A stretch of DNA of 64,000 nucleotides from Syntrophus sp. (in: bacteria) (GTDB lineage Bacteria > Desulfobacterota > Syntrophorhabdia > Syntrophorhabdales > Syntrophorhabdaceae), in the NCBI GenBank assembly GCA_013824645.1, contig PNOF01000005.1, positions 1 to 64,000 on the forward strand. The letters run 5' to 3'. Of this stretch, positions 4,362 through 42,720 are shown piece after piece; position 1 is the first letter of the stretch, and each line of letters starts with the position of its first letter. Under the pieces are notes generated by a model. The model made no database searches and was not told the origin of the DNA. It saw only the letters and a list, made by a program, of their open reading frames with translations. Both the position numbers and the translations under genes were made by a program.

Positions 4362-4465
4362 ATACTAACCTTCCTTTATTCAGTTTCTGGGGCTCGCGTC
4401 GCCCCCTCCAGCGGCAAAGCCACTGGAGCCTTCCCTTCTCGCCCGCTGTGCGGGCTGTTTGTGTT

Positions 4466-5594: not shown

Positions 5595-6768
5595 TCTTAA
5601 CAGCTCTTTTCTTTTTCAGAGCAAAGGTAAGGACATAGATAATGCCACCGATGAAGAGACCCATAAGCGGCCCGAGGACAAGGGCGCCGATGATCCATTC
5701 AAAAATTCTTTCCAGACCCTGATATCCGAGAGTCTTCAGGGAAATCTCCGTGAGAAACCTCCCGTGACGGATAAAGTAACCAACCTCAATGCAGAGTGCC
5801 GGGACAATAGGGGGATTACAGAGCTGACTGGTCCCGAGGGCAGCATATTTGTTGAGGCGAAAAAAATTGGCTGTACCGAGGATAACCAGTGCCTGGCAAG
5901 CAATAAGCGGCAGAGCGCCGAGAAAAACACCGAGGCCGCCCGATACAGCCAGCCTTTTCGGCGACACGTGCTTACTGAGGAGGATCCTCAGTGATTCCAC
6001 GGGTCGGAGGATGGTTATTCTTGATATATCGTCTTGTTCCTGCACGAACCACCTGTGCGGTACAGGCATGATAGCCCGTATGGTGAGACGTGTATTGAGG
6101 ATGGTAAGGGCAAGGTTGTCCATGAAGGGGCGGAAGTGGGAAATACGTTTGTCTGGTTCAGGATAATGGACGGAAATATCGACTTCCTTCAGCGTTATCC
6201 CTGCCCAGGCGGCTTTCACCAATACCTCTACCTCAAAGGAATATCGCTTATCGCGGAGCTTCAACCATTCCAGGAGGATGACCGGGTAGGCACGGAAACC
6301 GCTCTGGGTGTCTTTCAAGGAACAACCTGTCTGTACCCTGACCCAGAAATTGGAAAAACTCCTGCCAAACCGTGATGAAAAAGGAACGGTTTTACTGTTA
6401 AAAATCCTTTTTCCTACTACAATGGCCAGCGGTTTTTTTCGGATTACAGGAATGAACCGTGAAACATCGGCAGGATCATGCTGTCCGTCAGCGTCGATGG
6501 TAATAATATGGGACATGCCAAGTCTTCGCGCTTCCTCTGCTGCAGTTAAGATTGCCGCACCTTTTCCCCTGTTTTGTTCGTGGCGGATAAACAGGACCGG
6601 AAGATCCCGGATTGCCTCTGCGCTGCCGTCATCACTGCCGTCATCAATAACAAGAACATCGATACTGACGGCAAGGGCGCGTGTCACAACATCTCTCAGC
6701 GTCCCGGCATGGTTATAGACAGGGATCACAATGAGTGGTTTTATCTTTTCTATTCCTGGTTCATTCAT
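5587..6768 (-). CDS. glycosyltransferase family 2 fused to a DUF2062-like membrane domain
   Basis: PLIVIPVYNHAGTLRDVV...IDDGSDDGSAEAIR...TIDADGQHDPAD; C-terminal membrane domain GVFLGALPLIACQ... Confidence 0.88.
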   Translation of the reverse strand: MNEPGIEKIKPLIVIPVYNHAGTLRDVVTRALAVSIDVLVIDDGSDDGSAEAIRDLPVLFIRHEQNRGKGAAILTAAEEARRLGMSHIITIDADGQHDPADVSRFIPVIRKKPLAIVVGKRIFNSKTVPFSSRFGRSFSNFWVRVQTGCSLKDTQSGFRAYPVILLEWLKLRDKRYSFEVEVLVKAAWAGITLKEVDISVHYPEPDKRISHFRPFMDNLALTILNTRLTIRAIMPVPHRWFVQEQDDISRITILRPVESLRILLSKHVSPKRLAVSGGLGVFLGALPLIACQALVILGTANFFRLNKYAALGTSQLCNPPIVPALCIEVGYFIRHGRFLTEISLKTLGYQGLERIFEWIIGALVLGPLMGLFIGGIIYVLTFALKKKRAVKNA

Positions 6769-27307: not shown

Positions 27308-28603
27308 ATGAAAGTCCTCCTTGTTAACCCTCCCAATTGCGGGCGCAGTATTCCTGAAGAACTGTACGGTATCAATTCCCTTAAGCTGATCCTGCGTGGA
27401 GAACCACTCTCGCTTGAGGCCTTGGCGGGCAACCTCGATCATCATGAAGTGAAGATAGTTGACCTGAAGGCCGCACCTGACACCTTTATTGAAATACTTA
27501 CAGACTTTCATCCCGGCATCGTGGGAATTACCGGTGTAACCTGTGAGGCAAATACCATGCTGAAACTGGCAGCCATGGCAAAGGAACTCTCAGGCGCCAC
27601 CGTTGTAGCCGGCGGTGTACATGCAAGTAATGATCCCTCTTTTTTTAACCGGGAAGAGATAGATTATATCGTCATGGGTCTTGGGAAATTAAGTTTCAGG
27701 GAACTTGTTGATGCCCTGGAGATGGGCAATATGGGGAAGGTAATCGCCGGTGTTGCCAAAACAAACCCTGGAGGAGCGCTTGTCTTTGCTCCCCGGGAAT
27801 TCACCAGGGACGATCTCGTTGAGGAGAAGGCCCCTCGTTATGACCTCACAAACCCCTATCGCGGATATTATTTTCTGGAATCTCTTGGCTTCAGTCTTGG
27901 CCTTGTCTCCACCGCTTTCGGTTGTCCTCACCGCTGTTCCTTCTGCTCTATCGAAAACATAACCAATGGCCATTATCTTACTCACGGCCCCGAAACGGTT
28001 ATCCGTGACATCGGATTGCTCGGCGATATTCCCGTCATCCGCTTGGTCGATGCAAATACCTTTGGCAATATTTCCCAATCCAGAATACTCTGTCAAAAAA
28101 TTGGAGAGTCGTGCATAAAAAAACAATTTGTCGCCGATGTGCGTTCCGACACTGTGGTGCGTCACCCTGACCTGTTTCGCGAATGGAGAAAGGTGGGACT
28201 CCGTTCTGTCATTATCGGTTTTGAAGAGATAGACGACGGACGGTTAAGCACAATGGGAAAGGCAAACACCACAGCCATGAACTCCGAGGCCATCCATGTA
28301 CTCCACGATATAGGTATTACCATCGTCGGCGATTTCATCATATCACCCGATTTCGACGAAGATCAATTCCAGGCGCTGAGAGACTATCTGGAGAAAAACC
28401 CGGTGGACCTGCTCATGCCTTCTATACTCACACCACTTCCCGGAACACCGCTTTATGAGTCCATGAAGGACAAGATTACCATCCATGACCTGGATTATTA
28501 CACTCTTACCAATGCGGTAATTCCTATCAAGATGGATGAGAAGGTTTTTTATGAAAACTATGCAGGCCTGATGAGATCTGGTCATGCGGGGGCAAAACTA
28601 TAG
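27308..28603 (+). CDS. B12-binding radical SAM protein
   Basis: VVAGGVHASNDPSFFN; CxxxCxxC in AFGCPHRCSFCSIENITNGHY. Confidence 0.9.
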   Translation: MKVLLVNPPNCGRSIPEELYGINSLKLILRGEPLSLEALAGNLDHHEVKIVDLKAAPDTFIEILTDFHPGIVGITGVTCEANTMLKLAAMAKELSGATVVAGGVHASNDPSFFNREEIDYIVMGLGKLSFRELVDALEMGNMGKVIAGVAKTNPGGALVFAPREFTRDDLVEEKAPRYDLTNPYRGYYFLESLGFSLGLVSTAFGCPHRCSFCSIENITNGHYLTHGPETVIRDIGLLGDIPVIRLVDANTFGNISQSRILCQKIGESCIKKQFVADVRSDTVVRHPDLFREWRKVGLRSVIIGFEEIDDGRLSTMGKANTTAMNSEAIHVLHDIGITIVGDFIISPDFDEDQFQALRDYLEKNPVDLLMPSILTPLPGTPLYESMKDKITIHDLDYYTLTNAVIPIKMDEKVFYENYAGLMRSGHAGAKL

Positions 28604-28616
28604 TGAGGTGTGCGCC

Positions 28617-29774
28617 TTGAAAAATGTCTATATAACCGATCTGGCCGCTTTTCTTCCCAATAAACCCGTATCAAATGACGAAATTGATAAAATCCTTGGT
28701 GTGGTAGAACAGATCCCGACGCGGACCAAGAAAATCATCCTGAGAAACAACGATATCCAGACGAGGCACTATGCAATCGACCCTGAGACAGGAAGGACAA
28801 CCCACACGAATGCTCAACTTGCCGCCGAGGCCATACGAGGGTTGAAACCATATGAGGGCTTTTCTCTCAACGATATAGAATGTCTTTGCTGTGGTACTGC
28901 GACCCCCGACCAGCTCATGCCCGGCCATGGATTAATGGTCCACGGTGAGCTGAAAAGCGGACCTTGCGAGGTAGTCAGTACGGCAGGCGTCTGTATATCG
29001 GGCATGACAGCCCTAAAATACGCCTACATGAACGTATCCCTCGGTCTTTCAAAAAACGCCGTGGCAGCGGGATCCGATGTGGCATCGCCCTCCCTGAGGG
29101 CCCGGTCTTACATCGGTGTCAGGCAGAAAGAAAAAATCGAGGGGGCCGCACGAAAGGGAGAGATGCTGCCTTTTGATACGGTTTTTCTCAGATGGATGCT
29201 CTCCGACGCAGCAGGTGCTGTCTTCATAACGCAGGACCGGATATCCGATCGACCTGCCCTGAAAATAGACTGGATTGAGAATATCTCTTTCGCGGGAGAG
29301 ATGGAGACCTGTATGTACGCGGGAGCGAAGAAAAACAACGACGGTTCCATAACCGGCTGGCGGGAGTTCCCATCACCGGAGGATGCTGTCATGAACGGCG
29401 CTTTTCTCATACAGCAGGACGTGAAACTCCTCAATAATGACATTATGTATGTTTCCGTCGACAAGACATTACCCTTTGTGATCAAAAAACATGGGCTCTC
29501 GGCGGCTCAGGTTGACTGGCTTCTGCCCCATTATTCATCGGGCTATTTCAGGCAGAGGTACTATGATCAGTTGAAGGGGTTCGGGTTTGAAATTCCGTTT
29601 GAAAAATGGTTTACCAATCTAAGTTATAAAGGAAACACGGGGGCCGCCTCAATGTATATTATTCTTGAGGAGCTTTTCCATTCGGGCAAGCTTAAGAAGG
29701 GCCAAAAGATACTCTGTTATATTCCCGAAAGCGCCAGATTCTCAATTTGCTATGTTATGCTGACGGTGGTATGA
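28617..29774 (+). CDS. beta-ketoacyl-ACP synthase III-like (KAS III), copy 1
   Basis: Alternative TTG start at 28617; STAGVCISGMTALKYA Cys motif, LLPHYSSGYF His, NLSYKGNTGAAS Asn. Confidence 0.9.
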   Translation: MKNVYITDLAAFLPNKPVSNDEIDKILGVVEQIPTRTKKIILRNNDIQTRHYAIDPETGRTTHTNAQLAAEAIRGLKPYEGFSLNDIECLCCGTATPDQLMPGHGLMVHGELKSGPCEVVSTAGVCISGMTALKYAYMNVSLGLSKNAVAAGSDVASPSLRARSYIGVRQKEKIEGAARKGEMLPFDTVFLRWMLSDAAGAVFITQDRISDRPALKIDWIENISFAGEMETCMYAGAKKNNDGSITGWREFPSPEDAVMNGAFLIQQDVKLLNNDIMYVSVDKTLPFVIKKHGLSAAQVDWLLPHYSSGYFRQRYYDQLKGFGFEIPFEKWFTNLSYKGNTGAASMYIILEELFHSGKLKKGQKILCYIPESARFSICYVMLTVV

Positions 29775-29818
29775 ATAGGTCAATCCGACTGCCTTCATAG
29801 AACAGTGTTTTCTCTTCG

Positions 29819-29882
29819 TCAGGTCCCGCGCCACGAGTATCTTTGTATCAGGCACCTGTTCTGTCACCTTACTATTTCCCAC
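29819..29882 (-). pseudogene. ABC-transporter ATPase 5' stub
   Basis: Minus-strand GTG start reads (M)GNSKVTEQVPDTKILVARDLT, matching MGNSKVTEQIPDTKMLVARDLK of the intact ATPase (38581-39357), then breaks off. Confidence 0.85.
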
Positions 29883-30880
29883 AAATCTTTATATAGCTGA
29901 TGTTCTTTTGCGGCGCAATCAAGAATGATATCACCCAGGCGGTCAAAATTGTCCCCATCAGTTGATCTGTTTTTGCAAATCCTGGCGCCATAGAGGGCAA
30001 ACTCCCGCCACTGGTCACCTATGGCCGTCATCCTCTTTGACAGTTCTAAAAGTCGTTCATTACCCATTATATGGCCGGCTTCATTGAGAAAGGCGGCGTA
30101 CATTAGGCGAAATCCGCCACCGCCGGTGCCAATCTCTTCCTGCATCCTGATGGCATGGCTAAGATGGAGGAGTGCCTTGCGCTTCCCGTATTTTTCCGGC
30201 CACTGTCTGAGGGCTTTCGCGAACATCCTGATGCCCCGCACACCAATAAGGGGGACCGGCGTTTTTATCATCATCCTGCATGCTTCTTTGATACCATTTT
30301 TTATGGCACGAGGAAAATCAACCTTTTCGGGAACATCGGACAGATAGTACATCTTGCCTTTCGGGGCCAGAAGGCCTTTAGCAAAACGGGCCTTCATGAG
30401 ATCTTTCCGCGAGCAGACAACGGGCTCATTGAGGACAGTGTCACTTATGAGGTAGTCGTTCCCTTCCCTGCCATAGACAATGAGTGAGTGGGCGTTGAAA
30501 TGAAACCGCATGGCGTCCGGCATGTAAGGGAGCCAGTAAATGCCTGCCTGGAGGCCTACCGGTATCCCTTTATCAATGACACCGTCAAGGGCGTCCATGG
30601 CCCTTTCGGGGTCTTTGAACCTGAAGGTCTCAAACCGGACATTGAGGCGTTTCGCCGTACTTTTCAGTATCCTCCCCGGCGTGTTACGATAGGTGATGAA
30701 GGGCGATCCGTAGACCTTGATGATGGGAAAATATCCGAAGAAAATACCGGCCCCTATACCAAAGACAAGGGGCTCCGAGGCGTTGAGACCGTAATGTGAA
30801 AGCAGGCTTGATGTGGCTCCGCTTTCACAGTGGGCCCCTTGGCGATGAATAAATGCTGTGTCTGTTTTTTCTACTATCAT
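29864..30880 (-). CDS. BtrH_N-domain protein (C39-like acyltransferase family), copy 1
   Basis: AHCESGATSSLLSHYG, GIGAGIFFGYFP, RFHFNAHSLIVYG, YLISDTV: conserved Cys/His/Asp. Confidence 0.85.
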   Translation of the reverse strand: MIVEKTDTAFIHRQGAHCESGATSSLLSHYGLNASEPLVFGIGAGIFFGYFPIIKVYGSPFITYRNTPGRILKSTAKRLNVRFETFRFKDPERAMDALDGVIDKGIPVGLQAGIYWLPYMPDAMRFHFNAHSLIVYGREGNDYLISDTVLNEPVVCSRKDLMKARFAKGLLAPKGKMYYLSDVPEKVDFPRAIKNGIKEACRMMIKTPVPLIGVRGIRMFAKALRQWPEKYGKRKALLHLSHAIRMQEEIGTGGGGFRLMYAAFLNEAGHIMGNERLLELSKRMTAIGDQWREFALYGARICKNRSTDGDNFDRLGDIILDCAAKEHQLYKDLWEIVR

Positions 30881-31273
30881 TCAGGACACTTCTTTCAGTT
30901 GTTCAACAGTCACGTTAAAAACCGAGGCGTAGCGTTGGAGTGCCTCATCATCAAGCTTGTTAAAGGCCCGTGGTTTGAGGTGGCGCTTCACCCTCCAAGC
31001 CCCAAGGCCGGTATATTGAGAGAGCAACTTTACGTCCATGAGATTTTTGTTCATGTGATATGCCAGGGGGCTCAGTTTCTTCTTTTTGACCTTTTCCAGT
31101 ATACCGGCAAGCTCTTCGTTTATAAACTCCCACGCAATACCATTAGCAATATTTGTCGGCTCCCAACCAGCGCTCTGAGACTTTACGTATTCACCATTTT
31201 TATCGGTAGCGTAACAGATAACCCGTACATGCCCTAATATACCCTGGTCCTGGGGAACGTCTTTCTTTTCCAT
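30881..31273 (-). CDS. 130-aa protein with HTH-like C-terminus, BtrH-partner copy 1
   Basis: LLSQYTGLGAWRVKRHLKPRAFNKLDDEALQRYASVFNVTVEQLKEV; ends directly at the BtrH start. Confidence 0.8.
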   Translation of the reverse strand: MEKKDVPQDQGILGHVRVICYATDKNGEYVKSQSAGWEPTNIANGIAWEFINEELAGILEKVKKKKLSPLAYHMNKNLMDVKLLSQYTGLGAWRVKRHLKPRAFNKLDDEALQRYASVFNVTVEQLKEVS

Positions 31274-31459
31274 ATGTCTAAAAGATATACCCTTTTATAC
31301 TATTTGTCATTCCAGTCCTGGTCCGTTGCCGGTCAATCTGCCCCGCTGTTCTTCTGTACTGTACTATGCCCTGCAAGGTACAACAAATCAATTAAGATGT
31401 ATCTGGAACGTCAGTATAACCTCTTGTGTCATTGGGATTATACTGTGCCATACAGGGGT

Positions 31460-31720
31460 CAGCTTTGTCAATTTTCTTGCCGGTTATTTTCTCAATAACA
31501 TAAAAACCTATTCACCCGTATTCTATTTCCACAATTGTATTTACGGGGAAGATAATATGACCTGTCCCAGGATTTATCCAGTTTTCGTAGTTTGCCCTGT
31601 ATGTTTTGCTATCGTTTGTCTGGGTATGGATGTTATTTTTCATATAAAGCTGCTTTGGCTTTGATGGTTCTTGCGGTGCTGCCGAAACAATGCGGGCGCC
31701 AGCGCGGTGTCGGACAGACC
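31460..31720 (-). pseudogene. truncated paralogue of the 26275-26853 lipoprotein
   Basis: KPKQLYMKNNIHTQTNDSKTYRANYENWINPGTGHIIFPVNTIVEIEYG*(stop)IGFYVIEKITGKKID versus KPLYLKNNIHTQQSGSNYKASYANWTDPGWGHVVIPVNAVVEIEYVRRYIFILEKDTGRRIE. Confidence 0.85.
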
Positions 31721-31905
31721 GGATTATTAACGATGAAACAAGATATCCTGTCAGGTAGTAGGTAGCTCCTAAGGTCGTGAATTTACTTGACTCCACAGAA
31801 CCGGATATATTATCTTAGTCACGGCCCGAAGAGGTCAATACATTATCAATTGGAAGGATACAATCTTGCAGTATGAATTCGGACAAACAAATTATATAAA
31901 CCGCG

Positions 31906-32070
31906 AGCGGGACTCCGCTTTATAGGTCCATGAAGGAGAAGATTACTATCCATGACCTGGATTATTATACTCTGTTCAATGCCGTTCTCCCCACCACGAT
32001 GGATGAAAAGGTGTTCTGCGAAAACTAAGCCGACCTTCTGAAATCAGGTCATTCAGGAGCAAAAATATAA
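31906..32070 (+). pseudogene. 3' remnant of a radical SAM gene (paralogue of 27308-28603)
   Basis: SGTPLYRSMKEKITIHDLDYYTLFNAVLPTTMDEKVFCEN*ADLLKSGHSGAKI* versus PGTPLYESMKDKITIHDLDYYTLTNAVIPIKMDEKVFYENYAGLMRSGHAGAKL*. Confidence 0.92.
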
Positions 32071-32074
32071 TGAG

Positions 32075-33235
32075 GTGTGTCCTTTGAAAGAAGTTTTTAT
32101 AACCGATGTAGCTGCTTTTCTTCCCAACAAGCCCGTTACAAACAATGAGATAGAGAAGTATCTCGGCGTAGTGAACAATATATCCACCCAGATCAAGAAG
32201 ATAGTCCTCAGGAGCAATGCCATTGACACGCGATACTACGCCATTGATCTAAAAACGGGTATGCCGAGTCATACCAACGCGCAGATTACTGCTGAGGCCG
32301 TCCGGGAATTAAAACCTTATGAGGGCTTTATCCTCAACGATATAGAATGTCTCTGCTGCGGCACCACCAGCCCCGACCAGTTGATACCCGGCCATGGACT
32401 TATGGTCCACGGAGAATTGAAAAGCGGACCCTGCGAGGTTGTCAGTACAACAAGCGCCTGTATATCGGGTATGACGGCCATGAAATACGCCTACATGAAC
32501 GTGGCCCTCGGTCTCGTAAAGAATGCCATCGCCACCGGCTCGGAAGTGATGTCGGCTTTCATACGGGCAGGTTTTTACGATGGCGTTGGACAGAATAAAG
32601 AGGTCCTCTCAAAGAAGGACGAGATGTTACCTTTCGATTCCTCCTTTCTGAGGTGGATGCTTTCCGATGGAGCCGGCGCCGTATTTCTGACCCCGGAAAG
32701 GGTCCCCGGCCGCCTTGCTCTTAAGATCGACTGGATCGAGGAGGTTTCCTTCGCAGGGGAATATGAGACTTGCATGTATGCCGGGGCAAGCAAAAACGAA
32801 GACGGCATCATAAAAGGCTGGCGCGAATATCCTTCACAGCTTGAAGCCGTAAAAGATGGAGCTTTCCTCGTGCATCAGGACATAAAACTCTTAAGCAGCG
32901 TCGGCGGCATCGTTTCCGTGGAAAAGACATTGCCACTGATTATAAAAAAACACAGCCTTTCAGCCTCTCAGATTGACTGGCTGTTGCCCCACTACTCGTC
33001 AAACTACTTCAGACCGGTCTATTACGATCACCTGAAGAAATTCGGCTTCGAGATTCCCTATGAAAAATGGTTTACAAACCTGAGCTACAAAGGGAACACG
33101 GGGTCTGCATCGATCTATATTATACTGGAAGAGCTGTTCCGTTCGGGAAAACTCAAAAAGGGCCATAAACTGCTCTGTTTCATCCCCGAAAGCGCACGGT
33201 TTTCTACGTGCTACATGCTCCTCACCGTTGTGTAA
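32075..33235 (+). CDS. beta-ketoacyl-ACP synthase III-like, copy 2
   Basis: Closely similar to copy 1 throughout; STTSACISGMTAMKYA, LLPHYSSNYF, NLSYKGNTGSAS. Confidence 0.9.
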   Translation: MCPLKEVFITDVAAFLPNKPVTNNEIEKYLGVVNNISTQIKKIVLRSNAIDTRYYAIDLKTGMPSHTNAQITAEAVRELKPYEGFILNDIECLCCGTTSPDQLIPGHGLMVHGELKSGPCEVVSTTSACISGMTAMKYAYMNVALGLVKNAIATGSEVMSAFIRAGFYDGVGQNKEVLSKKDEMLPFDSSFLRWMLSDGAGAVFLTPERVPGRLALKIDWIEEVSFAGEYETCMYAGASKNEDGIIKGWREYPSQLEAVKDGAFLVHQDIKLLSSVGGIVSVEKTLPLIIKKHSLSASQIDWLLPHYSSNYFRPVYYDHLKKFGFEIPYEKWFTNLSYKGNTGSASIYIILEELFRSGKLKKGHKLLCFIPESARFSTCYMLLTVV

Positions 33236-33261
33236 GCGGTCAATCCGACTGCCTGCATATA

Positions 33262-33350
33262 ATGGCGCTTTTCTCATCGTCAGCTTCCTCGACGTACAGA
33301 AGTACGTCTACGTCAGCTTTCTCTTCAGCATCACCATTCTATTTTGGCAT
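33262..33350. repeat. dispersed palindromic intergenic element, copy 3 (inverted orientation)
   Basis: Core GACGTACAGAAGTACGTC (33291-33308); minus strand AAATAGAATGGTGATG... parallels copy 1 AAATAGAATGAAGATG. Confidence 0.6.
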
Positions 33351-33568
33351 TCGAATTGACTGGGTTATCGGTAACTGATCGTTTTTGGTATCCATGTAGC
33401 CTAAATACGACCAGTAATACGGACTAACATCCATTATTGCTTGTTGCACCTACCAGTCAACAGCCCCAGATGACATAAAGAATGCCGATTACCATTTGAA
33501 GTATTTGCCAGAATTGAATATGCTTAGATGGTTGAAGAACATGTTGGATAATTGGAAGGTTCGATAAG

Positions 33569-34618
33569 TTGTATAAACAACCACTGATATATATCTTTAC
33601 TTCGGCTGCCCTCTTTGGAATCAGCCCACCTCTCGCAAAGCTGCTCGTGAAGAACATTCCTCCGGTTGCTTTGGCCGGATTTCTCTATTTAGGGGCATTT
33701 GTCGGGCTTTCTCTCTATTCGATAATCCGGGGGATCGTTTCTACTGAAAAGATAGGAAACACCAATTTAAAAAAAGAAGATTTGCCGTGGTTGGCTGGCG
33801 CTATACTTTCTGGTGGAATTATCTCCCCGATATGTCTGATGTTCGGATTAAGCCAGATTTCCGGCTTTACCACCTCATTGCTGCTCAATCTGGAAGGGAT
33901 TTTTACAGCGATCATTGCAGTTATCTTTTTCAAAGAGAATGCAGGAAAGAGGTTGTGGTTGGCATTGATGTGCATGACCTTAGCGGGTATTTTCTTAACC
34001 TGGGATTCAAGCCAGGGTAAGTTTAACTTACTTGGACCCTTATTAATTACCCTTTCCATGATCTTCTGGGGCATAGATAATAACCTGACCCGAAACATCT
34101 CAACAAGAAACCCGATGCAGATTACCCGTATTAAAGGATTGGTCTCAGGTTTAGCATCTATCTCTCTGGCATATGCTCTCGGAATGGGCATTACATGGGA
34201 TGTAACTATTTTTTATGCTCTGTTGCTGGGTTCTTTCAGCTATGGCATTAGCCTCGTGTTTTTCATTAAAGCCTTGGAGGGGTTAGGTTCTTTCCGAACG
34301 GGTATGTTTTTTAGTCTTGCCCCTTTTATCGGTGCCGTGATCTCCCTCATAATGCTTCAAGAGTGGATCGGTTGGGTAATGTTCCCTGCGATCATTCTCA
34401 CGGTGGCTGGTGTCTGGCTTATAAGCACTGAAAAGCATTTACATCTGCACTCACACCAGAAAGAGGTTCATACGCATTCACACAATCACAAAGATATTCA
34501 TCATATGCACGAACATACAGAACTTGTTCGAGAACCGCATGTTCATGAACACAAGCACCTTGAAGAGAATCATGTTCATTCGCACTGGCCTGATACACAT
34601 CATAGACACGAACATTAG
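33569..34618 (+). CDS. EamA/DMT-family transporter with His-rich C-terminal tail
   Basis: About 10 TM segments; tail HLHLHSHQKEVHTHSHNHKDIHHMHEH...HRHEH. Confidence 0.88.
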   Translation: MYKQPLIYIFTSAALFGISPPLAKLLVKNIPPVALAGFLYLGAFVGLSLYSIIRGIVSTEKIGNTNLKKEDLPWLAGAILSGGIISPICLMFGLSQISGFTTSLLLNLEGIFTAIIAVIFFKENAGKRLWLALMCMTLAGIFLTWDSSQGKFNLLGPLLITLSMIFWGIDNNLTRNISTRNPMQITRIKGLVSGLASISLAYALGMGITWDVTIFYALLLGSFSYGISLVFFIKALEGLGSFRTGMFFSLAPFIGAVISLIMLQEWIGWVMFPAIILTVAGVWLISTEKHLHLHSHQKEVHTHSHNHKDIHHMHEHTELVREPHVHEHKHLEENHVHSHWPDTHHRHEH

Positions 34619-34757
34619 CCAATAACACATCAAAGTTCATTTTTAGAGATTATCAACTGCAATCTTCTGCTGAACTCTGAATCTGATTTTAACGAGTATA
34701 GGAAGAAATAAAGGTTGAGAAATGCGACTGAGGAGAATATTGAGCACTGTTTTTAAT

Positions 34758-34793
34758 CCAGTTTTATCAGTTGAGATAAACTGATAAAACTGG
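34758..34793. other. perfect 15-bp stem hairpin CCAGTTTTATCAGTT-GAGATA-AACTGATAAAACTGG
   Basis: Direct reading of reverse-complement arms. Confidence 0.9.
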
Positions 34794-34800
34794 CTGAAGT

Positions 34801-35015
34801 GGCTGGAGGCACGGAGGAAAGGGTTCAGATGTGACGATATGACGGGCTCCTGCTGGCGCGTAGGCCAAAGTTAGATCATAAAAATAGGTTTGCCGGGTAC
34901 CCACGCGTTATCAAGAGATTAGAAAGCAACCAACAGCTACGTGGGTGGTAAACGTCGGAGCGCGCAGAGTCTGGCAGAGCGGTGCAGATGGACGCTTTCC
35001 TCCGTGCCTCCAGCC
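34801..35015. repeat. 215-bp element bounded by perfect 21-bp inverted repeats (MITE-like or structured RNA)
   Basis: GGCTGGAGGCACGGAGGAAAG at 34801-34821 and its exact reverse complement CTTTCCTCCGTGCCTCCAGCC at 34995-35015; an internal ACCCACG/CGTGGGT pair. Confidence 0.8.
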
Positions 35016-35068
35016 GGTCTTAAAAGAAGTTAACTCAACCAAACAAGAAGGAAATGCTCAGAAACTAA

Positions 35069-36874
35069 TCACTGCGTAGAGATTTTGCGGAGCTGATAGC
35101 CTGAGTATTGGAGGCATTCCTTGCCGTCGATGGTGATGGCGCGAATTGTCTCTCCCATGCCGCTGCCCAGACCGAGAATGATCGCCTCCGTATCGGAGAC
35201 AGGGGCGATAGGTAATTTCACCGAGCCTTCGGCAAGGAGCGGCGTATAGTATTCAATCAGAAGAAAACCATCCTGACGACCAATGCGAACACCATCAAAG
35301 AAAAGAACATCGTTTCCCGCGTTTACAATTTCATAAGCTCCGATGCGATCCAACCATTTTTCCGGAACTGAAGGAGGGCTAATCTTTTCCCCGAAAACCA
35401 TATCAAGGCCCTGTGAGCGGGCAAGCAAAAATTCACGACCGGCAACAACAACCCGGGATACACCTACATCGTCCAGCTCTCTAAGGCTTATAGGAATCAG
35501 ACCGAAAAGCTTGTATTTCATGGCCAACATCCCGTCGGCACGGGGAATAAGACTCACTGTATTGCCAAATATTTCCGCCTTAAGAAAATCTGATTTCTCA
35601 TAAGCTTTGATGAGACCAATAGGGGTGGCATAATGGCCCGTATAGAGGCTTACCTCTTCGGGAGATAAAGACTTGGGGCTTTTCTGAGGCCTTACCCACC
35701 GGGGTTGTTTGATGCCGGTCTTTACTTCCAGGGCCAGTATCAATGCCTCAATTGCCACATTGTCCACCGCGGGCCGGGTAGACGAATTAGTGAGAACAAC
35801 GACACCGAGCTTCTGTTCCGGCAGAACAAGGAGCTGACTATTAAAAGAGGGCAACGATCCGCCGTGGTGTGCCACCGGTCCTGCATTTTTTATTTCCGTA
35901 TTGCCCATGCCGTCTAAGGCCCAGCCAAGGCCAATGTAGATACCCATATCAAGGGGCACTTTGATATTTTGCGGGCGCAGCATCTCGGCCAGCGTTTCCC
36001 GTTTGATGATCTGATGCTCGCCGGATATACCGCCCGTAAGGACCATTTGCATAAAACGTCCCAGATCAACAGCACTGGATAGCAAGCCAGTAGCGGGAAG
36101 ATCGCGAATACTTAATTCATTGGTTACATCACCGTCTTTGTATCCTTTGGCTACCACCATGCCGGTTTTCGTGGAGAAGGACGAATTGTCCATGCCGATT
36201 GGACCCAATATGGATTCATCCATATAAGAGGCATAACTTTTCCCGCTCACCCTCTCGATAACGCCGCCCAGCAAGGTCACGCCAAGATTGGAATAGGAAT
36301 AGACAGACTCAGGCGGATACGCCAGATATTCATCTTTGATCTCCTTAATCACCTTTGTAAAAGGTTCAGGTTTACTGGAAAAGATACCCTTATATAAGTT
36401 CGCGGGCAAGCCGGAATGATGGGTCATCAAATTCCGTGGCGTAATCCTGCCTTCTCCGGGAAAACGGGTCTTGATAGAAAACTCCGGCAGATACGTTGTC
36501 AGGGATTCATCAATATTGATCTTGCCCTGCTCCGCCAGTTGCATGATTGCCGTTGCGGTAAATAGTTTCGAGATTGAGGCAACCCGATAGACCGTTTGGG
36601 GTGTCGCCGGGATTTTGTTTTCCTTGTCGGCATAGCCGAAACCTTGTGCCCAGATAAGGCCCTTGTCATCGACAAGGGCTACGCTCAAACCCGTTACTTT
36701 ATTCTTCTCCATCTCTTTGCGGGCCAACTGGGAGATAGACTCCTTAACGCACTCGTAGTCGGCACACGAGACAGTTGCAAATCTCGGAGGGGTTGTCGAG
36801 CATCCATTGAGAAGGAAAAAACTGATGGCAATAAAGATTGCCAATGTAAAGCTGTCCCTTGTGCAGATCTTCAT
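35069..36874 (-). CDS. beta-lactamase-family serine hydrolase (class C-like/PBP-like lipoprotein)
   Basis: SISKLF (SxxK), YSYSNLG (YxN), HHGGS; lipobox LLNGC. Confidence 0.9.
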   Translation of the reverse strand: MKICTRDSFTLAIFIAISFFLLNGCSTTPPRFATVSCADYECVKESISQLARKEMEKNKVTGLSVALVDDKGLIWAQGFGYADKENKIPATPQTVYRVASISKLFTATAIMQLAEQGKINIDESLTTYLPEFSIKTRFPGEGRITPRNLMTHHSGLPANLYKGIFSSKPEPFTKVIKEIKDEYLAYPPESVYSYSNLGVTLLGGVIERVSGKSYASYMDESILGPIGMDNSSFSTKTGMVVAKGYKDGDVTNELSIRDLPATGLLSSAVDLGRFMQMVLTGGISGEHQIIKRETLAEMLRPQNIKVPLDMGIYIGLGWALDGMGNTEIKNAGPVAHHGGSLPSFNSQLLVLPEQKLGVVVLTNSSTRPAVDNVAIEALILALEVKTGIKQPRWVRPQKSPKSLSPEEVSLYTGHYATPIGLIKAYEKSDFLKAEIFGNTVSLIPRADGMLAMKYKLFGLIPISLRELDDVGVSRVVVAGREFLLARSQGLDMVFGEKISPPSVPEKWLDRIGAYEIVNAGNDVLFFDGVRIGRQDGFLLIEYYTPLLAEGSVKLPIAPVSDTEAIILGLGSGMGETIRAITIDGKECLQYSGYQLRKISTQ

Positions 36875-36900
36875 TTCATCTCCTGGTGTCGCGGGGAAAG

Positions 36901-37197
36901 CTATTTTACAGACAATCCTTGTTCGGTATGTTGCCTGATAAATTCGGCCAGAGTGTTAATCGACTTGAAGATCCTGCGGCTTGTTTCCTGCGCGTCAATT
37001 TTGACATGATACGTTTTTTCAATGGCCACCACTATTTCAACAGCGTCAAGCGAATCAAGGCCGAAAGCTGATTCGGGGCCGATGATAGGATCATCCAAAG
37101 ACATATCATCGGGCATGGGGTCGAGCACGTTGCATACTTTGACAATGAGTTCTACTAATTCTTTTTCCAGTCCTTCTTTTTCAAACCATTTCATCAT
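36901..37197 (-). CDS. acyl carrier protein
   Basis: 98 aa, AFGLDSLDAVEIVVAIEKTYHVKI. Confidence 0.93.
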   Translation of the reverse strand: MMKWFEKEGLEKELVELIVKVCNVLDPMPDDMSLDDPIIGPESAFGLDSLDAVEIVVAIEKTYHVKIDAQETSRRIFKSINTLAEFIRQHTEQGLSVK

Positions 37198-37217
37198 GTA
37201 AACCTTCCATCGTAGTG

Positions 37218-38573
37218 TTACTGAATTCGGATACGTCCTTTCCGGGACAGATTAAACCATGCTATCAGCGTCGTTACAAGAAAAAAAAGCACCAATAACA
37301 TGACATCAGGCAGGACAGACCACAAACTGCCTCCGCGGACAAAAACGTCCAGAAACGCGTTGAGCCCCCAGGCAAGAGGAGAGAAGAGACTTATTTTCTG
37401 CATCATTGCCGGCATAACATAGACGGGCACCATAATCCCGCCGATAGCTGCGGCAATGACCACGGAAACAGCGCCGAAAGTGGAAGCTTGCTCGTATGTC
37501 CGTGCCATCGTTCCCAAGAGAATGCCATACCCGCAGGCAGCCACAGCCGCGCTGAGGGCGATTATCATAAGGGTAACCGGTGATGGACCCGTTTCGAGCA
37601 CAGGGGTCCCAAGCAGAGGCAGGAGGAACTTTCCCACGGCGATAATGAGTCCGAACTGGGCCATGCATATGAGTACGTAAGCAACTATTTTTCCGGTGAG
37701 TATGGTCAAACACGACATGGGCATGGTAAGGAGACGGACAAGCATCCCGCTCTGCCTTTCCCTGATAAGTGAGCCTCCCAGGGGAACAACAATAAAAAAC
37801 ATGCCAAAAAGCGTCCAGGCGGGGATGTTCTGCTGGACTGTATTGGGGGTTTTTGCGTGCTTTCCAAGCTGGGCAGTGCTTTCCCTGACAGCCATAATCG
37901 GCGTTTTGTCCCAGGCAACACTGAGAACGGGAAGTGATTTTTTCACCTCTTCCGACCACATGGCTCCCATGGACTTTTTCGCAGCGGCTTCAATCTCAAG
38001 AGGAAGAAGCGCGGCGAAGGCCTTGATTTTTTCGTCGGTTTCAATACCGATAAGCGCCTTTTCCAGAGAACCCGTAACACTCGTCCGAACGGTCTCTGTC
38101 ACGGTCGGGTCAAAGTAGACCGTGAGATCGGGCACAGTGACGGTTTTTTTCTTCTTGGATGTTTTTTTTGTGTCACCGGAGGAGAGGGAGTTTCGCGCGG
38201 CTTGCTTTGCATTATAAATAAAGGCCTTCGTCGTCCCTTCAGGAACGATGATGGCAAGCTGGTAATCGCCTTTTGCAACAGCACTTTTGGCAGTCTCCAC
38301 ATCGATTGTTTTTCCTTTCAGTTCCTTGACAAGCTCTAATGCATCCACCTTTTTTAAGACCTCTTCGAGTTTTGGCCCCACCATTTGCCCATCCCTATCC
38401 AGAAAAAGCGTTTTTATCTTCGTTTCACCTATGGATTTAAGGATATTCTGCTGGACAAGGGTAGTAACAATAACGAGGACGACGGGCATCAGGAATATGA
38501 CGAGAAGACCGGCGTAATCCCGGAAGAGGAGTAAAAGTTCTTTGTATATGTTTGGCCAGAGTTTACCCATCAC
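37218..38573 (-). CDS. ABC-2 type transporter permease
   Basis: N-terminal TM, large periplasmic loop, C-terminal TM block FGMFFIVVPLGGSLIRERQSGMLVRLLTMP. Confidence 0.9.
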   Translation of the reverse strand: MMGKLWPNIYKELLLLFRDYAGLLVIFLMPVVLVIVTTLVQQNILKSIGETKIKTLFLDRDGQMVGPKLEEVLKKVDALELVKELKGKTIDVETAKSAVAKGDYQLAIIVPEGTTKAFIYNAKQAARNSLSSGDTKKTSKKKKTVTVPDLTVYFDPTVTETVRTSVTGSLEKALIGIETDEKIKAFAALLPLEIEAAAKKSMGAMWSEEVKKSLPVLSVAWDKTPIMAVRESTAQLGKHAKTPNTVQQNIPAWTLFGMFFIVVPLGGSLIRERQSGMLVRLLTMPMSCLTILTGKIVAYVLICMAQFGLIIAVGKFLLPLLGTPVLETGPSPVTLMIIALSAAVAACGYGILLGTMARTYEQASTFGAVSVVIAAAIGGIMVPVYVMPAMMQKISLFSPLAWGLNAFLDVFVRGGSLWSVLPDVMLLVLFFLVTTLIAWFNLSRKGRIRIQ

Positions 38574-38580
38574 AACTCCA

Positions 38581-39357
38581 TCAATCTCTTAAGTGCTTTC
38601 CGGTAAGGGCAATAAAAACATCCTCCAGATTGGCGCACCCGGGGATGCGCTTAATCAGTTCCTCCGGTGTCCCTTCCGCAATGATACCGCCGGCATCCAT
38701 AATTGCCACAGAGGAACAGAGGCCCTCCACCTCACCTATATAGTGTGTTGTATAAACCATGGTGGTGCTCTCCTTAATTGAGGAAAGCTTTTCGAGGATG
38801 AGGTTTCTCGATTGGGGATCAATCCCCACTGTAGGTTCGTCGAGAAAGAGGACCTTCGGTTTGTTGAGAATACCTGCCGCCAGATTGGCCCGCCGCTTCA
38901 TTCCCCCCGAATAGGCATAGACGTAATGGTCTGCGTGTTCTTCCAGACCGACAAAGTCGATACATTCCGATATCCTCTGTTCAAGCGCTTTGCCGCGTAG
39001 TCCTGAGACACGTCCAAGAAAACGGAGATTTTCACGGGCTGACAGGTTTGGATAAAGGGCCACTTCCTGGGGTACATATCCGATCAGCTTTTTCACTTCC
39101 TGTGGGTATCGAACTATGTCTATCCCGTAAATGGTAACACTCCCGCTCGTGGGTTTCATGAGCGTACTCATCATGGAGATTGCCGTTGTCTTGCCGGCCC
39201 CGTTGGGGCCAAGGAGACCAAAAATCTCTCTTTCGGTGATGGAGATGTTAAAACCCTTTACAGCAGGCTGTGATGACCCCGGATATATCTTCTTCAGGTC
39301 CCGGGCCACGAGCATCTTTGTGTCAGGTATCTGTTCTGTCACCTTACTATTTCCCAC
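38581..39357 (-). CDS. ABC transporter ATP-binding protein
   Basis: LLGPNGAGKTTAISM Walker A, YSGGMKRRANLAAGILNKPKVLFLDEPTVGIDP. Confidence 0.96.
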   Translation of the reverse strand: MGNSKVTEQIPDTKMLVARDLKKIYPGSSQPAVKGFNISITEREIFGLLGPNGAGKTTAISMMSTLMKPTSGSVTIYGIDIVRYPQEVKKLIGYVPQEVALYPNLSARENLRFLGRVSGLRGKALEQRISECIDFVGLEEHADHYVYAYSGGMKRRANLAAGILNKPKVLFLDEPTVGIDPQSRNLILEKLSSIKESTTMVYTTHYIGEVEGLCSSVAIMDAGGIIAEGTPEELIKRIPGCANLEDVFIALTGKHLRD

Positions 39358-40355
39358 AAATCTTTATATAACTGATATTCTTTCCCGGCGCAATCAAGAA
39401 TGATGTCACTTAAGCGGTCGAAATTGTCTCCGTCAGAAGCCCTGTTTTTGCAAATTCTCGCTCCATGAAGGGCAAACTCACGCCATTCATCACCTATGGC
39501 CATCATCCTCTTTGACATTTCCAGATATCGATCATCACCGGTGATATGTGCCGCTTCGTGAAGGAAGGCGGCATACATGAGGCGAAATCCGCCTCCGCCG
39601 GTGCCGATCTCTTCCTGCATCCTGATGGCATGTCCGAGATAGAGAGGGACTCTGCGTTCTCCATATTTTTCCGGCCACTTTTTTAAGGCTTTTGCATACG
39701 TTTTGATACCCCACACGCCGATCAGGGGGAAGGGCACATGGATCATGACATGGCAAACCTCTTTGATCCCTTTCCGTATGGCAGGTAAAAAATCGACATT
39801 GTCCGGGGTATCCGATGGATAGTACATGACACCTTTTGGTGCCATCGCGCCTTTACAGAAACGGGCTTTCATGAGATCTTTGCGGGAACAAACAGTAAGC
39901 ACCTCACAAACAGGATCACTGATGAGATAATCGTTGCCGTTTCTGCCATAGACAATGAGGTTGTGAGCGTTGAAATGAAACCGCACGATATCGGGCACAT
40001 AAGGGAGCCAGTACAAGCCTGCCCTGATACCCACCGGAATACCTCTGTCGATGGTTCTGTCGAGGGCATCCATCCCCTTTTCAGGGTCCTTGAACGTGAA
40101 TATCTCAAAACGAACACCAAGCCGTTTAGCTGTGTTCTTCATAATCTTTCCAGGCATATTGCGGAAAGCAATCAGCGGCATCTCCATCATCTTTATATAG
40201 GAAAAATATCCGAAAAAGAGGCCTGAACCTATGCCGAAAACCAGAGGTTCCGAGACCTCGATGCCGTAATTACAAAGAAGGCTTGCGATAGACCCACTTT
40301 CGCAGTGGGCAGAGATGCGGTGTATGAAATCTTTATCTTTTTTCTTTAATGTCAT
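39339..40355 (-). CDS. BtrH_N-domain protein, copy 2
   Basis: AHCESGSIASLLCNYG, RFHFNAHNLIVYG, YLISDPV; overlaps the ATPase start. Confidence 0.85.
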   Translation of the reverse strand: MTLKKKDKDFIHRISAHCESGSIASLLCNYGIEVSEPLVFGIGSGLFFGYFSYIKMMEMPLIAFRNMPGKIMKNTAKRLGVRFEIFTFKDPEKGMDALDRTIDRGIPVGIRAGLYWLPYVPDIVRFHFNAHNLIVYGRNGNDYLISDPVCEVLTVCSRKDLMKARFCKGAMAPKGVMYYPSDTPDNVDFLPAIRKGIKEVCHVMIHVPFPLIGVWGIKTYAKALKKWPEKYGERRVPLYLGHAIRMQEEIGTGGGGFRLMYAAFLHEAAHITGDDRYLEMSKRMMAIGDEWREFALHGARICKNRASDGDNFDRLSDIILDCAGKEYQLYKDLWEIVR

Positions 40356-40748
40356 TTATGGTGTTTCTTTCAACTGTTCTACGGTTATATTAAAAACCGA
40401 GGCATAGCGTTTCAGCGCCTCGTCATCGAGGCTGTTAAAGCCGCGGGGTTTAAGGTGCCGCTTCACCCGCCATCTTGGCAACCCGACGTATTGAGCAAGG
40501 ACTTTCGCATCCATCATATGTCTGTTCATATGGTACGCCAGTGGGCTCAGTTCACCTTTTTTGACCTTTTCCAGCACGCCGGCAAGGTCTTCACTAACGG
40601 ATTCCCAGAATTTGTCGTTGGCGATGTTTAGGGGTTCCCATCCGGAACTCAGGACACGCACATAGTCTCCATTTTCGTCGGGGACATAATATTTATGAGA
40701 GAAACCGCCATACTTACCTCCGTCCATAGGAACATCTTTTTTTTCCAT
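40356..40748 (-). CDS. 130-aa HTH-like BtrH-partner, copy 2
   Basis: Homologous to 30881-31273 throughout. Confidence 0.8.
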   Translation of the reverse strand: MEKKDVPMDGGKYGGFSHKYYVPDENGDYVRVLSSGWEPLNIANDKFWESVSEDLAGVLEKVKKGELSPLAYHMNRHMMDAKVLAQYVGLPRWRVKRHLKPRGFNSLDDEALKRYASVFNITVEQLKETP

Positions 40749-41024
40749 ATCCCTAAAATGTACCCTTTTACATTATTTATTATTCCGGCCTTGTTCCATT
40801 GCCGGTCAATCTACCTCACTCTTCTTTTGTGATATACCCTGCAAGATGGTATATCACATCAATCAGAAATACACCAAGTACAAACTCTTGTGGTATTGGG
40901 ATTAACTGTGCCACACCGGGGTAATCTTTGTCAATTGAATTGTTGCTGGAAGCCATTCCACGGGGTATTTGTTCATATCCTGAAACCCTTGAGAAAGAAC
41001 CGCACCATGGCGGACAATTAAGGC

Positions 41025-41072
41025 ATGGATTTCATGAAAGTCATACAGGAAAAAAGAAGCATCATGAAATAT
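41025..41072 (+). pseudogene. 5' stub of a nitroreductase gene
   Basis: MDFMKVIQEKRSIMKY versus MDFLKVIQERRSIRKY at 42721; upstream non-coding sequence also matches. Confidence 0.85.
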
Positions 41073-41088
41073 CAAGATATCCTTTCCG

Positions 41089-42105
41089 TCACTTTACTAT
41101 TTCCCACAAATCTTTATAGAGCTGATATTCTTTTCCGGCGCAATCAAGGATGATGTCACTTAAGCGGTCGAAATTGTCTCCGTCAGAAGATCTGTTTTTG
41201 CAAATCCTTGCGCCATAGAGGGCAAACTCCCGCCATCGGTCGCCTATGGCCGTCATCCTTTTTGACATCTCCAGAAAACGATCATCACCGGTGATATGGG
41301 CCGCTTCATGAAGAAAGGCGGCATAGATGAGGCGAAACCCACCTCCTCCTGTTCCGATTTCCTCCTGCATCCTTATGGCATGTCCGAGATAGAGGGGAAG
41401 CCTCCGTTTTTCATGTCTTTCCGGCCACCGTCTCAAGGCTTTCGCGAACATCCTGATACCCCCCACACCAATCAAAGGGAAGGGGAAATGGATCATGACA
41501 TAACAGACCTCCCTGATCCCTTTTCGTATGGCCTGTGAAAAATCGACCTTTTCCGGCACTTCCGACAGACAGTACATCTTACCTCTGGGGGCAAGCAGGC
41601 CTTCAGCAAAACGGGCTTTCATGAGGTCCTTGCGGGGACAGACAACAGGATAATCAAAAACAGGGTCGCTCACGAGATAGTCGTTGCCGTTTCTGCCATA
41701 GACAACAATAGTATGGGCATTAAAATGAAACCGCATTGCATCAGGCATATAAGGGAGCCAGAAGACACCGGTCCGGACGCCAGCAGGAACGCCATTGTCG
41801 ATGACCCTGTCAAGGGCATCCATTGCCTTTTCAGGGTCATGAAACTTAAATGTCTCAAAACGGACGCCGAGTCGTTTCGCTGTGTTCTTCAATATTCTCC
41901 CCGGCATATTACGAAAGGTGATCGTCGGCATCCCCTGGACCTTTATGAAGGGAAAATATCCAAAGAAGATGCCTGACCCTATGCCGAAGACAAGAGGTTC
42001 CGAGGCCTCGATCCCGTAATTGAGAAGAAGGTTCGAGGTAGACCCGCTCTCACAGTGGGCAGACTGGCGATGAATAAACTCCTTATCTATGCTTTTTAAT
42101 ATCAT
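41089..42105 (-). CDS. BtrH_N-domain protein, copy 3
   Basis: AHCESGSTSNLLLNYG, RFHFNAHTIVVYG, YLVSDPV. Confidence 0.85.
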   Translation of the reverse strand: MILKSIDKEFIHRQSAHCESGSTSNLLLNYGIEASEPLVFGIGSGIFFGYFPFIKVQGMPTITFRNMPGRILKNTAKRLGVRFETFKFHDPEKAMDALDRVIDNGVPAGVRTGVFWLPYMPDAMRFHFNAHTIVVYGRNGNDYLVSDPVFDYPVVCPRKDLMKARFAEGLLAPRGKMYCLSEVPEKVDFSQAIRKGIREVCYVMIHFPFPLIGVGGIRMFAKALRRWPERHEKRRLPLYLGHAIRMQEEIGTGGGGFRLIYAAFLHEAAHITGDDRFLEMSKRMTAIGDRWREFALYGARICKNRSSDGDNFDRLSDIILDCAGKEYQLYKDLWEIVK

Positions 42106-42498
42106 TTATGGGGTTTCTTTTAACTGTTCTATGGTTATATTAAAAACCGAGGCATAACGTTTCAACACCTCATCATCAAGTTTATTAAATGCACGAGGTT
42201 TGAGATGACGGTTCACCCGCCATCTCGCAAACCCGCTGTATTGAGAGAGGACCTTCGCGTCCATCATATTTTTATTCATATGGTATGCCAGGGGGCTCAG
42301 CTCACCTTTTTTTACCTTTTTCAGTATACCGGCAAGGTCTTCATTGATAAATTCCCAGGCAATGCCGTTGGCAATGTTGAGCGGCTCCCACCCCGAACTC
42401 TTGGAACGTACATATTCTCCATTCTCATCCGTAACGTAACAGATTCCATGCCATTGACCGTATATTCCGTGGTCCTGGGGAACGTCTTTCTTTTCCAT
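42106..42498 (-). CDS. 130-aa HTH-like BtrH-partner, copy 3
   Basis: Homologous to copies 1 and 2. Confidence 0.8.
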   Translation of the reverse strand: MEKKDVPQDHGIYGQWHGICYVTDENGEYVRSKSSGWEPLNIANGIAWEFINEDLAGILKKVKKGELSPLAYHMNKNMMDAKVLSQYSGFARWRVNRHLKPRAFNKLDDEVLKRYASVFNITIEQLKETP

Positions 42499-42720
42499 TT
42501 TACGTAACAGAGATACTGCACTGTCTATCAGTTGTCAACACATTTTTTGCCTAGGCAGAAACATCCGGAATACCGGGTCAGGCCTGCTGCAACCTTGGAA
42601 TTACCGTGCCACACCGGATACGCTTTGTCAATTGAATTGCCGACAGGGGCTATTCTGCATGGTATGCATATTCATCTTTAAATTCTTGACAACGCCTGTA
42701 CTGTGGAAGATAATTAGGAC

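Follow-up and report, generated by a model that had tools for sequence, protein, structure and literature searches.

A dispersed intergenic palindromic repeat with a covarying, strand-biased fold in relatives of Syntrophus

The stretch of Syntrophus sp. DNA analysed here (64,000 nucleotides; hereafter the window) holds, between genes, what is probably a degenerate copy of a dispersed palindromic repeat that is non-autonomous, is moved in trans and has a rod-shaped hairpin that has been kept foldable. The repeat is a new family of a known type of genomic parasite (BOX/ERIC/MITE). The usual account of bacterial MITEs is of DNA whose transcripts happen to be stable. In the present family, over 70 copies provide quantitative evidence, in the form of double changes, an excess of GU over AC and a preference for one strand, that a single-stranded fold is preserved by selection while the ends and the stem sequences turn over, and palindromic modules swap for one another at the hairpin tips. 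Defining the family would allow tests of what RNA folding does in small mobile repeats.

The window copy and its family

The initial annotation had described a 215-bp element, bounded by perfect 21-bp inverted repeats, at positions 34801–35015. These repeats are present exactly as described (GGCTGGAGGCACGGAGGAAAG at 34801–34821, with its exact reverse complement at 34995–35015) and form the longest perfect inverted repeat of the window (arms of at least 14, loop up to 400), the chance expectation for 21-bp inverted-repeat pairs in the window being ~4e-6. The arms extend to a 49-nt pair that is 76% complementary, and the predicted fold of 34801–35015 has an energy of −107 kcal/mol (z = −6.5), which none of 200 shuffles equals. 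The further complementary segments that had been reported were located as well, ACCCACG at 34899–34905 and CGTGGGT at 34940–34946, and their pairing is lengthened by GTTTGCC (34888–34894) and GGTAAAC (34947–34953). However, the proposed bounds were too narrow, omitting a perfect hairpin directly upstream that is also a feature of the family, and the 21-bp repeats, while a real stem, close an internal rod instead of terminating the mobile unit. The location is intergenic, as had been stated, between the 3′ ends of the convergent ORFs 33569–34618 (+) and 35069–36874 (−). A profile model of the chassis, the rod of ~138 nt that is common to the copies, is referred to as R2; a second model, of the core (R1), scores 134 bits on the window copy at 34843–34984. 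The features of the window are as follows.

34697–35050 (+): full repeat copy, approximate; ends degenerate, extent estimated from AGGAAG-like ends and an alignment of 12 copies from the window's own genome
34758–34793 (+): upstream hairpin with 15-bp perfect arms and a 6-nt loop; most family copies have one, differing in sequence
34801–35015 (+): chassis, a rod-shaped hairpin with an 88-nt insert at its tip; aligns to R2 over the whole length (69.5 bits, E 2e-14)
34801–34821 (+): closing stem, 5′ arm; inverted repeat and covariation
34995–35015 (+): closing stem, 3′ arm; inverted repeat and covariation
34866–34953 (+): module A, palindromic, in the tip, with the GTTTGCC/GGTAAAC and ACCCACG/CGTGGGT helices; the 88-nt insert relative to R2, with covariation
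4389–4444 (−): module B, solo copy; blast matches to copy tips in contigs C8, C14, C32 and C47

Many other genomic copies were found, both in G000, the draft genome that the window comes from (estimated to be 88% complete), and in its relatives. With the interior of the window copy as query, one further copy was recovered in G000 and about 13 more in relatives. A pattern scan of named genomes matched a Syntrophus MAG alone. A search with a short copy from genome G001 revealed that the ACCCACG/CGTGGGT core is absent from most copies. The closing-stem sequences vary between copies, with arm complementarity kept in most. R2 matched 7 of 39 family genomes (Syntrophus-related Desulfobacterota), with 24, 17, 56, 29, 19, 5 and 1 matches per genome, and found no match in the other 32; in some cases the two strands of a single place were both counted, the 24 in G000 representing at least 16 distinct places among those listed. 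The repeat is thus present at at least 15 further places in G000 besides the window copy. Copy number differs sharply between congeneric species (5 versus 56; 29 and 19 versus 0). All 40 copies examined were intergenic, in every orientation relative to their neighbours, a count that is biased towards "intergenic" because the gene calls followed a simple longest-ORF rule that omits ORFs overlapping the element. The earlier reading that the element holds no convincing ORF was borne out: no protein is conserved across the copies, which are short, dispersed and without a transposase gene, and their open frames vary from copy to copy. The family is distributed in the way of a repeat that spreads and not in the way of a conserved gene.

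Rfam searches of the window and of the copy-bearing loci returned no match above a family's gathering score save to neighbouring rRNA and tRNA genes, the phages and plasmids searched for the repeat gave no matches, and among the works found in the literature the family is described nowhere. A viral contig from IMG/VR (L242, ~6600–6750) holds a fragment of the chassis right arm, CGCCGCAGATGGGCGTTTCCGAACATGCCGTTGGCC, between two ORFs; it scores just 13.6 bits with R2. Matches to the repeat and to its terminal repeats have the same coordinates in contig C79 of G000 and contig C105 of G011, a genome of the same family. The two drafts belong to different genera, and this coincidence suggests that the contig is shared between them or misbinned.

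Other duplicated DNA was observed in the window. Positions 1398–1629 (232 bp) are 78% identical to contig C83 of G000, where the counterpart sits upstream of another repeat copy, at a distance of a few hundred bases, and contain an inverted repeat of their own (GCAACATATCAT/ATGATATGTTGC). Several long duplications within the window, in the interval 28441–42516, at 29813–31473, 39288–40936 and 41075–42429 (72–80% identity), and between 28441–29830 and 31908–33291 (72% identity), are apparently paralogous gene copies.

Exchangeable tips, termini and target duplications

The interior of the repeat is modular, and its units are exchangeable. On one and the same chassis the tip is found in three versions: a plain hairpin, for example GCGTATATACATACGC; module A, carried by the window copy; and module B (GGGCGAGAAGGGGAGGCTCC...GGAGGGGGCGACGCAAGCCCC). 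Other scaffolds contain module A as well, and in genome G017 it lies inside module B. The solo module B of the window consists of three hairpins (GGGCGAGAAGGG..GGGGGCGACG..GCCCC). In genome G004, one chassis tip (L198, contig C12) carries a further palindromic insert with GGGGGAGGG arms, so that the tip has been replaced by at least three modules. In G029 and G018 (L024 and L026), variants of module A lie close to 5S rRNA genes of the other strand, and terminator-like hairpins follow these variants.

Genome G004 is where the ends of the mobile unit are sharp. Its copies begin with GGTATTGTCAAAAGTT and end with AACTTTTGACAATACC, ~360–376 bp apart in plain copies, and these clear termini lie outside the closing stem, by about 160 bp on the upstream side and 66 bp on the downstream side. 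The 16-mer terminal repeat, allowing up to 2 mismatches, occurs 55 times in G004, as against 4 times for a reversed control. Exact 8-bp target-site duplications (TSDs) flank three copies, L177 (GCAGGATA), L167 (AAAGAGAT) and one in L232 (AGCCCCTT); among the other G004 copies several have a TSD with one mismatch and many have none. Internal-deletion derivatives of 143–250 bp, which lack the rod, retain the same ends. Terminal inverted repeats (TIRs) combined with TSDs of 8 bp are characteristic of DDE-type transposition.

The initial annotation had proposed a MITE-like element. Homologous copies bounded by TIRs and TSDs do exist in this relative, but neither was detectable at the window copy or at the other copies in G000, and the copies in G001 and G011 show no such termini. 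Some G000 copies have CAGGAAG at both ends. A profile of the G004 element aligns to copies of other genera mainly over the chassis; this, with the lack of such termini in G000, G001 and G011, indicates that the chassis is conserved and the outer ends are divergent. MITE status, seen directly in relatives, would extend to the window copy.

Because the mobile unit in relatives has TIRs and 8-bp target duplications, its transposase is likely to be supplied in trans. No transposase with matching ends was found: a search for TIR pairs that have a TSD and enclose a gap of transposase size gave none. Mobilisation by IS6 was suggested by a similarity of the TIRs and by the 8-bp TSD; it was rejected, as the carrier genomes have no IS6-type transposase.

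Outside the order, R2 gave weak but full-length matches to a repeat of the form CCAGATGCAAGGCGCGC...GGCGTACTT...GTACGC...GCGCAACGCCGCAGATGGACTTTTT, and one such copy used as query matched 87 of 297 genomes of the phylum, in 57 genera. At 27 of 32 of these phylum-wide loci R2 matches at E < 0.01, although the loci were collected via a first R2 match and the R2 matches are therefore not independent. Copies start near TGGACTCGTAAAAAG and finish near CTTTTTACGAAGCCATC. At least 7 of 8 flanking bases match in 7 of 23 copies, compared with 8 of 506 mismatched pairings, with ends that were shifted by 3 and 1 bases after inspection of the flanks, the initial placement having given no TSDs. The strand bias described below is weaker in this repeat (GU 35 versus AC 21), and its sense strand is more stable in 30 of 31 copies. 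The phylum-wide repeat is likely homologous to the chassis family. With a probable homologue in ~30% of the sampled genomes of the phylum and no Rfam family, the repeat would explain much unannotated intergenic DNA.

A fold kept on one strand

The other initial proposal had been a structured non-coding RNA closed by a long stem, and the homologues indeed covary strongly in that stem. In an RNAalifold analysis of 11 copies, 19 of the 44 pairs had changed on both sides. When 72 copies are aligned, pairing holds in 92.4% of pair cells, and double changes affect 38 of 47 pairs, as against 23.5 in shuffles (0 of 500 reach the observed value), and 405 cells as against 114; the alignment was fitted to the model, which biases the count towards structure, and two independently made alignments agree with it. 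Sliding the partner columns by 1–3 positions brings pairing in the same copies down to 32–42%. The core of module A likewise covaries.

In a palindrome under neutral decay, GU and AC mismatches are about equally frequent, whereas selection on the RNA of one strand favours GU. On the pairs common to the folds of both strands, the ratio of GU to AC is 61:16. The sense strand is the more stable in all 33 G004 copies, by a mean of 16 kcal/mol, while in simulated neutral palindromes the strand difference averages zero. The sense-strand fold was also the better one in 20 of 20 copies of a mixed set and in 9 of 11 long forms; through shared ancestry these strand-bias counts are not independent trials, and many different pairs contribute to them. 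Strand-neutral folds made without GU pairs leave too few pairs for the asymmetry test. Together, the excess of GU over AC and the better folding of nearly all copies on one strand argue for selection on a single-stranded fold, and the folded molecule is most likely RNA. MITE and structured RNA are not mutually exclusive readings, since the homologous MITEs in a relative and the selection for strand-specific folding concern the same sequence.

Strong, strand-specific covariation, conserved upstream hairpins and intergenic copies independent of neighbour orientation are also what a host-serving multicopy family of small RNA genes would display, each gene having its own promoter and a conserved function and being duplicated passively. 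We regard this explanation as rather unlikely given the patchy occurrence of the repeat (5 to 56 matches within one genus, most of the family having none), the TIRs and TSDs in G004, the rodless deletion derivatives that share the same ends and the free exchange of tips.

A DNA palindrome without RNA function, whose arms are kept matched by hairpin or cruciform self-correction during replication or repair, would account for arms that are frequently perfect though different between copies, and the small GU excess of the phylum-wide relative (35 versus 21) also speaks for it. Self-correction predicts strand neutrality, however, and the GU:AC ratio of 61:16 and the 33 of 33 copies that fold better on one strand, where neutral palindromes average zero, make it quite improbable.

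Finally, the element could move through single-stranded DNA or RNA (Y1/REP-like, attC-like or retro-type), with an enzyme recognising the hairpin of one strand. The strand-specific fold, a G001 copy that starts abruptly at the closing stem and the CAGGAAG on both ends of some G000 copies would fit such a route, but the copy-rich genomes G001 and G004 have no Y1 transposase at E <= 1e-8, and the TIRs and 8-bp TSDs of G004 point to DDE-type transposition; we judge it very improbable. Mobilisation of the RAYT/REP kind was rejected on the distribution of Y1 transposases, with none in G001 or G004 at that threshold, integron attC arrays were ruled out by the dispersal of the copies in all orientations, linkage to one protein gene by unrelated neighbours, and a protein-coding repeat by open frames that vary between copies.

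A model for the repeat and its known counterparts

On the preferred explanation, that of a non-autonomous palindromic repeat, a transposase acting in trans would move the repeat, and the window copy would have inserted as the G004 copies did and subsequently lost its ends. The unit would comprise the ~138-nt rod with a second hairpin before it, foldability on one strand being kept by compensatory, GU-tolerant changes, and further palindromic modules would be accepted at the rod tip, the window copy being an example. The fold presumably acts as RNA. By analogy with Correia and ERIC, its most likely role may be to form a compact rod in transcripts that is processed by nucleases and makes insertions tolerable. 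A more active part for the rod RNA, in the spread of the element or in the host, for example in guiding the missing transposase or otherwise serving it in trans, appears unlikely; if true, it would explain why stems covary in a mobile repeat despite the turnover of its ends, and why modules are exchanged at hairpin tips.

Several described repeats resemble this family. The BOX elements of Streptococcus pneumoniae, like RUP and SPRITE, are intergenic long-stem repeats, with variable boxB units, that are thought to be parasitic (PMC3049150). They share with the present family a small, non-coding, intergenic nature, long stems, a modular interior and elements nested in one another. The likeness is one of architecture: BOX has tandem boxB units, whereas here different palindromes serve as tip modules, and here the closing stems covary between copies, with a strand bias. 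ERIC and Correia/NEMIS are palindromic intergenic repeats of 100–200 bp with internal insertions (Correia, 107 versus 155 bp), and the stem-loops in their transcripts alter mRNA stability through RNase III for Correia and RNase E for ERIC (PMC2229807, PMC10969869). The present family is likewise palindromic and intergenic with internal insertions but differs in its termini and TSD (a 16-bp TIR and an 8-bp TSD in G004) and belongs to another phylum.

QMITE1 and QMITE2 of Coxiella burnetii are MITEs of 150–400 bp with ~50 copies, some of which yield small RNAs, and QMITE2 has direct repeats of 7–11 nt (PMC5896051). They are MITEs of a similar kind, the evidence for covariation and strand selection coming here from the window's family. 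Families of multicopy palindromic intergenic sequences are also described in Geobacter bemidjiensis, a bacterium related to this phylum, and, compared by description, these may include the phylum-wide relative (PMC2996986). Among known systems, the closest are thus BOX by architecture, Correia and ERIC by behaviour, and the QMITEs as MITEs that yield small RNAs.
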